Assembly (NCBI GenBank): GCA_022826665.1
Contig: JAJDUK010000047.1
Location: 1 to 64,000, forward strand
Length of the DNA: 64,000 bases
Source of the DNA: Alphaproteobacteria bacterium
GTDB taxonomy: Bacteria; Pseudomonadota; Alphaproteobacteria; UBA828
Direction of reading: 5' to 3'
Shown: positions 16,477 through 17,166 of the stretch, piece by piece
How the letters are laid out: each line of letters starts with the position of its first letter
Numbering within the stretch: position 1 is the stretch's first letter
Translations under genes and position numbers: made by a program
Notes under the pieces: generated by a model
The model's input: the letters and a program-made list of their open reading frames with translations, nothing else
Databases searched by the model: none
Told to the model about the DNA's origin: nothing

Positions 16477-16583
16477 CCCGCGCCCGGCGGGCGCACGACG
16501 CTCGCATGCGCTTACTCATCACAACTAATTCATCCAAATTAGCTTGGTGGTCCGCTCCCTCTCCTGTACGGTCAGCAGACTGT

Positions 16584-16833
16584 GCCCCTGGAAGCACAGG
16601 TGGATAGTTGCGCCGCTTGAGACGAGCGAGGGGAGTGTCGAAAAGCGGAGGTAAGGTCGCACTGCACCGTCGCAAGACGGACTCGTTTCAGCGCTAGGAG
16701 CCGGTCGATCCCTCTAACGGCTAAGGCCCCAAGGCGCGAGGGCCCTGACGTGGGCTGCGGTGACTTGCGTCTGATGGCGGTACCCTTGACGACGCCTGGA
16801 AGACCCACGCCGGTTCAAGTCCGGTCAGGGGCA
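16584..16833 (+). ncRNA. Unassigned structured RNA candidate with tRNA-like ends
   Basis: GCCCCTG at 16584-16590 is perfectly complementary to CAGGGGC at 16826-16832, which is followed by an A like a discriminator base. Just before it, 16809-16825 is a textbook T-arm: 5-bp stem around TTCAAGT. Near the 5' end, AGCACAGGTGGATAG resembles a D-arm. The roughly 190 nt between hold stable hairpins: CCGTC-GCAA-GACGG (16667-16680, GNRA loop), AGCCG/CGGCT (16699-16722), GGCCC/GGGCC (16725-16744), CCGCTT/AAGCGG (16613-16648), GTGGG/CCCAC (16750-16808). No anticodon arm, tmRNA tag, RNase P core or group I P7 signature was found, and position 8 is not U. It may be a tRNA relic, an unusual intron-split tRNA, or a new RNA. 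Confidence 0.4.
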
Positions 16834-17028
16834 TTCACCCTTTCCACGCGATGATTTCGCCCCGCTTGCGGGCGGACGGTTGATCTCCGCCGCGGCCCAC
16901 CACGCATTGGGCGCGGCGATGCGGTGGTCGAAGCCGACCATCTCCACTTCGCTGCCAATCACGCGCTGTCGGCCGTCCCACACGGCTGCTGTTGCGCGTC
17001 CCAAGCGAGGCAAGCGGCCGTCTACCAC
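16825..17028 (-). pseudogene. Short orphan reading frame, possible gene remnant
   Basis: Read leftward, a frame of 67 codons from GTG at 17028 (open to about 17077 without a start codon) encodes a protein-like segment including GSEVEMVGFDHRIAAPNAWW and ends inside the T-arm element. I do not recognise the family. The lack of a good start and ribosome-binding site and the cut-off look suggest a C-terminal fragment. With the RNA candidate it fills the non-coding stretch 16477-17166; the rest is AT-rich promoter-like sequence before the methyltransferase gene. Confidence 0.2.
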
Positions 17029-17166
17029 AGGGCCAAATGGGATGCAGTAAGACTTGCGGATTCCTCCAGGTTATTCTCCTGTCTGAGACCATAGTATAAC
17101 GATGCCCTATACACTATATTAATAACCAGATATACTCAACTAAATTCTGAAAAAGGCAATCATTCT

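Follow-up and report, generated by a model that had tools for sequence, protein, structure and literature searches.

A 250-nt element with tRNA-like ends in an alphaproteobacterial genome, and a family of giant tRNA-like RNAs in phage tRNA arrays

The intergenic 250-nt element at 16584-16833 of contig JAJDUK010000047.1 (Alphaproteobacteria bacterium, UBA828; assembly GCA_022826665.1; the window is the whole 64,000-nt stretch that we analysed) has ends that resemble those of a tRNA and an interior that resembles nothing we could name. We put at about 50% the probability that the element is degenerate, tRNA-derived DNA that was acquired horizontally and lies in a variable spacer beside a polysaccharide gene cluster. 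A tRNA 5' end (acceptor strand and D-arm) and a tRNA 3' end (T-arm and acceptor strand) would then stand apart with ~180 nt of unrelated or decayed DNA between them; the element may have arrived on a mobile element or in a tRNA array and would have no present function. RNase P could still recognise its acceptor/T-stack if it were transcribed. Several observations favor such a remnant: its absence from all the relatives, phages, and plasmids searched, a spacer of 676 rather than 217 bp with a gene remnant at 16887-16978, a 3' end as in a foreign tRNA-Leu(CAA) while the element's own genome has all five leucine isoacceptors and a tRNA-Leu(CAA) with a different acceptor, the occurrence in another genome (G077) of such a 3' end away from its gene, and other odd, low-scoring tRNA-like matches in the genome. 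It is also single-copy, folds no better than shuffled sequence, shows neither a promoter-like nor a terminator-like site, and carries no insert that we could recognise as conserved. Outside the window, phage tRNA arrays carry a clear, conserved, and apparently unnamed family of giant tRNA-like RNAs, which is the more interesting object; the element itself, as a tRNA-derived scrap, is of minor interest.

Results

tRNA-like ends around an insert that folds at chance level

The two ends of the element are complementary, TGCCCCTG pairing with CAGGGGCA (Table 1). GCCCCTG at 16584-16590 is perfectly complementary to CAGGGGC at 16826-16832, the 7 nt of pairing that the original prediction had described, and T16583 with A16833 brings the match to 8 nt; among dinucleotide shuffles of the upstream 277 nt, an 8-nt complement arises in ~1% and a 7-nt complement in ~5%. 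The consensus T-arm said to abut the 3' strand is exact at 16809-16825, and acceptor stem and T-arm are both canonical tRNA features. No CCA is encoded at the 3' end, where TTC comes next, and the 24-nt 3' end has no second match in the window at up to 3 mismatches. The D-arm-like sequence reported after the 5' strand also stands, its tRNA D-arm score being reached by just 3 of 299 random 23-mers from the window. This 5' half resembles D-arms of the Thr/Arg type rather than the Leu type, so the element is not simply one broken tRNA-Leu.

The original prediction saw no anticodon arm, but a hairpin with a 4-bp stem and a 7-nt loop does occupy that place (16613-16629). On structure alone, D and anticodon arms occur at the right place in 17% of shuffles, and the loop, TGAGACG, has G at position 33 instead of U33, so the hairpin is not a decoding one. 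Taken together, the acceptor complement and D-arm statistics indicate that the tRNA-like ends are probably real, whereas the inner hairpins, described earlier as stable, are evidence of nothing: the element has the fold energy that chance would give (z -0.11, with 90 of 200 shuffles folding equally well), and the insert folded alone gives z +1.0 relative to shuffles. The hairpin with a GCAA tetraloop (16667-16680) is present but unremarkable. Our searches found no similarity of the insert to tRNAs, Rfam families, or the phage giant tRNA-like family, and its comparison with 355 tRNAs, meant to reveal hidden decayed tRNAs, did no better than shuffles (178/200). In a simple sigma-70 scan, neither promoter-like nor terminator-like sites turned up at the element.

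Table 1. Features of the element and its surroundings, in window coordinates.
Feature	Position	Strand	Remarks
Upstream gene pair, DUF1858-like/LarA-like	ends 16476		names read from translations
676-bp spacer	16487..17162	.	217 bp in G001 (L081) and G005 (L080); element lies within the extra DNA
5' acceptor-like strand TGCCCCTG	16583..16590	+	exact complement of 16826-16833; chance ~1%
D-arm-like hairpin GCA-CAGGTGGATAGT-TGC	16594..16611	+	stem of 3 bp only; similar to tRNA D-arms
Anticodon-position hairpin CCGCT-TGAGACG-AGCGA	16613..16629	+	4/5 pairs; not above chance by itself
Insert of ~180 nt in place of tRNA variable loop	16630..16808	+	
Hairpin CCGTC-GCAA-GACGG	16667..16680	+	picked out by the original prediction
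T-arm GCCGG-TTCAAGT-CCGGT	16809..16825	+	exact; abuts the 3' acceptor-like strand
3' acceptor-like strand CAGGGGC and discriminator A	16826..16833	+	
Decayed remnant, like the 3' end of a small monooxygenase-like gene	16887..16978	-	
Downstream methyltransferase gene	from 17167		opens the polysaccharide cluster; name read from translation

Searches against known RNA classes

Of the earlier proposals, the best fit to the ends is a tRNA with an unusual insertion. The element is no canonical tRNA: it lacks a decoding anticodon arm, 0 tRNA genes are called at it by a tRNA covariance model or ARAGORN, and it is absent from the tRNA matches in its own genome. A further reading is that an intron, self-splicing or other, interrupts a tRNA gene. 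The length of the insert suits small tRNA introns, and ARAGORN calls tRNAs once the middle is cut out in silico, yet these calls are not discriminating (190, against 9-387 when shuffled middles are cut in the same way). Moreover, ARAGORN finds no tRNA when introns up to 3000 nt are allowed, Rfam picks up neither a group I nor a group II intron signal with E allowed up to 10, and no consistent anticodon stem spans the insert, all of which make an intron very unlikely.

Another proposal, a degenerate tmRNA relative, would account for tRNA-like ends that lack a decoding anticodon. Against it, Rfam 15 has no hit to the element with gathering cutoffs and no relevant one, tmRNA clan included, when E values up to 10 are allowed, ARAGORN -m reports no tmRNA there, and the genome's own alpha-tmRNA, a class whose gene is permuted, lies elsewhere (226 bits); we find a tmRNA origin scarcely credible.

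A variable spacer without the element in relatives

The element is in none of 21 other genomes of the order. Among 141 relatives there was no match beyond the T-arm, a 398-genome sample of the phylum gave short chance matches only, and BLAST against phages and plasmids gave no match. A T-arm-anchored pattern run on 385 genomes of the class matched only in this genome and in G077, and window-derived patterns in further scans had a single match, a coding-like coincidence. Lack of conservation, the outcome named beforehand as counting against a new RNA, is thus what the order, relative, and phylum searches found, and conservation and covariation, the test of a functional structured RNA, found no relatives on which to operate.

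Two genomes of the same genus, G001 and G005, align with the window at ~92% up to 16486 and resume at 17163. The decayed remnant beside the element matches L083, L084, and L086 over 46-92 bp at 73-83% identity, and the gene that it resembles, presumably monooxygenase-like from its translation, lies near this site in G004 and G006, also of the same genus. Extra DNA relative to two same-genus genomes, together with an adjoining gene remnant, points to acquired, decaying DNA. In G004 a putative Phd/PIN toxin-antitoxin pair lies in this gap as well, which marks the site as a variable spot. The ORFs around the element, read by eye, include no integrase.

The 3' end and the tRNAs of the genome

The last 24 nt of the element exactly reproduce the 3' end of a tRNA-Leu(CAA) gene from another genome of its class (G059, L002); the BLAST match is 22/22 bases. 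The element's own genome has a broad tRNA set with all five leucine isoacceptors, and its tRNA-Leu(CAA), with acceptor GCGGGCG, belongs to a different sequence type. Across this genome the element is single-copy, and its 3' end has one match at 0 mismatches and three others with 3 mismatches, 2 of the 3 being unrelated tRNA genes.

Integration at tRNA 3' ends is common, and the only tRNA-derived part of the element could be a T-arm/acceptor fragment that a mobile element left behind on integrating or excising, with the 5' complement and D-arm likeness arising by coincidence. G077 (L074, C71:34000-46000; L003) offers a parallel: a lone 3' end of the same tRNA-Leu(CAA) type lies downstream of the intact gene at a distance of ~5.5 kb, and between the two copies are ABC transporter and SDR genes. 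It is possibly an old island scar and, by analogy, may illustrate how such tRNA 3' ends come to lie alone. However, the acceptor complement and D-arm have a joint chance on the order of 1e-4, uncorrected for post-hoc choice, a test for an att scar found no second copy of the 3' end and no target tRNA in the same genome, and no integrase was seen either around the element or between the G077 copies. We therefore consider a purely 3' origin unlikely.

In the genome that carries the element, L068:193-282(-) (G000:C54:692-781) is a class II, serine-tRNA-like sequence with the anticodon CCG (Arg) and A73; the order's other genomes match it at no more than 86%, as relatives of ordinary Ser-type tRNAs, and it is possibly a mistranslating or foreign tRNA. 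Four odd, low-scoring tRNA-like matches in the same genome (L070, L071, L072, and L073, on G000 contigs C46, C100, C57, and C75) are possibly foreign or decayed tRNAs. In Frigoribacterium, L109:7663-7898 consists of tandem tRNA-like units of ~62-80 nt with acceptor and T-arm and no recognisable anticodon arm. In two Omnitrophota MAGs (L097:454-711 and L104:1885-2125), similar inserts (AAAGGGGTGTGGGGAAAA...CCTTTGGGGA) come after tRNA genes, and beyond each insert the tRNA 3' end appears again, an arrangement suggestive of a small mobile element that targets tRNA 3' ends.

Giant tRNA-like RNAs in phage tRNA arrays

A scan for tRNA ends with the same acceptor as the element and the same spacing yielded L103:7133-7370(+), among 18 tRNAs, and L110:7552-7790(-), among 23, both in phage-like tRNA arrays and with a common core. 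Patterns built on this core matched up to 38 viral contigs (a few by chance or in part), as well as cultured Streptomyces phages and Streptomyces linear plasmids. The family (L103, L110, L129-L141, L143, L145, most of L164-L188, and L158-L162) has at least 37 distinct members, ~150-280 nt in length, of which almost all lie in phage tRNA arrays, and further tRNA genes were found at 24 of the 26 loci scanned. Matches to the family pattern at L142, L144, L146, and L147 were dropped, none being a full element and two (L142 and L147) looking protein-coding.

Members consist of an acceptor, a D-arm, an anticodon-position hairpin whose loop is mostly AAAACGGA, a variable-arm domain whose helix encloses GGTTGCGGATGCACCG and TAGGGAAGCGCGTT, a T-arm, and sometimes CCA. 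The 7-bp acceptor stem is paired in 37/37 distinct members, and a single position can show as many as six pair types; the full pairing is partly built in, since the 5' strand was picked as the best complement. Anticodon-position stems of at least 4 bp occur in 30/33 members, against 31% when the flanks are shuffled; for variable-arm stems of at least 6 bp the figures are 25/33 and 27%. Acceptor stems vary freely while pairing is kept, and the anticodon-position loop cannot decode. Large RNAs with tRNA ends and no decoding anticodon, of the kind that the original prediction imagined, therefore do exist elsewhere.

L103, the one member run against Rfam 15, had no match. The cultured Streptomyces phage records that we opened (Comrade, Alone3, and Kela) annotate no RNA feature at the family member, Karp and others also match the family, and a search of the journal literature turned up no paper naming it. 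The tRNA-like ends may allow the RNA to be processed and stabilised along with its array neighbours, leaving the variable-arm domain to do the work. An anti-defence role has been proposed for tRNA arrays (PMC12803027).

Does the element belong to the phage family?

A covariance model (R1) built from 16 members scores family members at 36-144 bits, and members left out of the building at 36-131 bits. On the window it has no match at E up to 10; with filters off it gives 9.4 bits, from the ends and T-arm only. Within the insert, GGTCGCACTGCACCG at 16655-16669 matches 13/15 positions of the family's first core motif, a score reached in 27 of 1500 shuffles (~2%). The second core motif is absent, the combined score is reached in 150/400 shuffles, and the insert aligns to the family no better than shuffles do. 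An AGACG/CGTCT loop pairing and a GTGTCG/CGACGC stem, which by eye mimic the family, were dropped, since on a rough estimate searches of this size should yield both by chance. Of the tRNA-scaffold architecture, the ends and D-arm are there and the anticodon-position hairpin is at chance level. Given the failed model, alignment, and motif tests, membership in the family is not supported; a common architecture is possible.

That architecture and the 13/15 motif match are what would favor a functional tRNA-scaffolded RNA built like the phage family: the acceptor, T, and D modules would let the RNA be processed and kept stable, and the payload would be a large domain in the variable region. The results of R1 and of the second-motif and alignment comparisons, the ~2% frequency of the motif score in shuffles, the absence of relatives, and the chance-level folding energy all speak against it. 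Because the acceptor pairing and D-arm survive, we keep a functional reading at low probability. Rather doubtful is the more specific idea that the element is a chromosomal, strongly diverged member of a wider tRNA-scaffolded class that includes the phage family, with tRNA acceptor, D, and T modules framing a giant, structured variable-region domain; if the element were shown to be both conserved and expressed, RNAs of this kind would extend beyond phages and phage-like plasmids.

Discussion

A degenerate, acquired tRNA-derived sequence is the explanation that we give the most weight, and three features do not sit easily with it. First, the 8-bp acceptor pairing and the D-arm are still intact, each expected at ~1% by chance, and random decay would tend to lose both. 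Second, the 5' half is Thr/Arg-like rather than Leu-like in its D-arm. Third, neither an integrase nor a partner att copy was seen nearby. The original observation is confirmed in part and its interpretation supported in part, the reading of the element as a new tRNA-mimicking RNA being unproven.

Set beside known systems, the element shares with a canonical tRNA the acceptor, the T-arm, and a D-arm-like sequence at the right place, and differs by the ~180-nt insert in place of a variable loop, the lack of a decoding anticodon arm, and the lack of an encoded CCA. By its 3' end, the nearest tRNA is the tRNA-Leu(CAA) of the GCCCCTG-acceptor type (G059), from which it departs in a D-arm that is not Leu-like. 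Like tmRNA, including the permuted alphaproteobacterial form (RF01849), it has tRNA-like ends without an ordinary anticodon arm, but it has no tmRNA similarity, its parts are not in permuted order, and the genome has an alpha-tmRNA of its own. Scars of integrative elements resemble it as lone tRNA 3' ends away from a tRNA gene, as in G077, and the element differs from them in its complementary 5' strand, its D-arm-like sequence, and the lack of a second copy. The phage giant tRNA-like RNAs, whose length range of ~150-280 nt takes in that of the element, have an acceptor, D-arm, non-decoding anticodon-position hairpin, large variable region, and T-arm, an architecture that the element may share; unlike it, they lie in tRNA arrays and carry at significance the AAAACGGA loop, the GGTTGCGGATGCACCG and TAGGGAAGCGCGTT motifs, and R1 scores of 36-144 bits.
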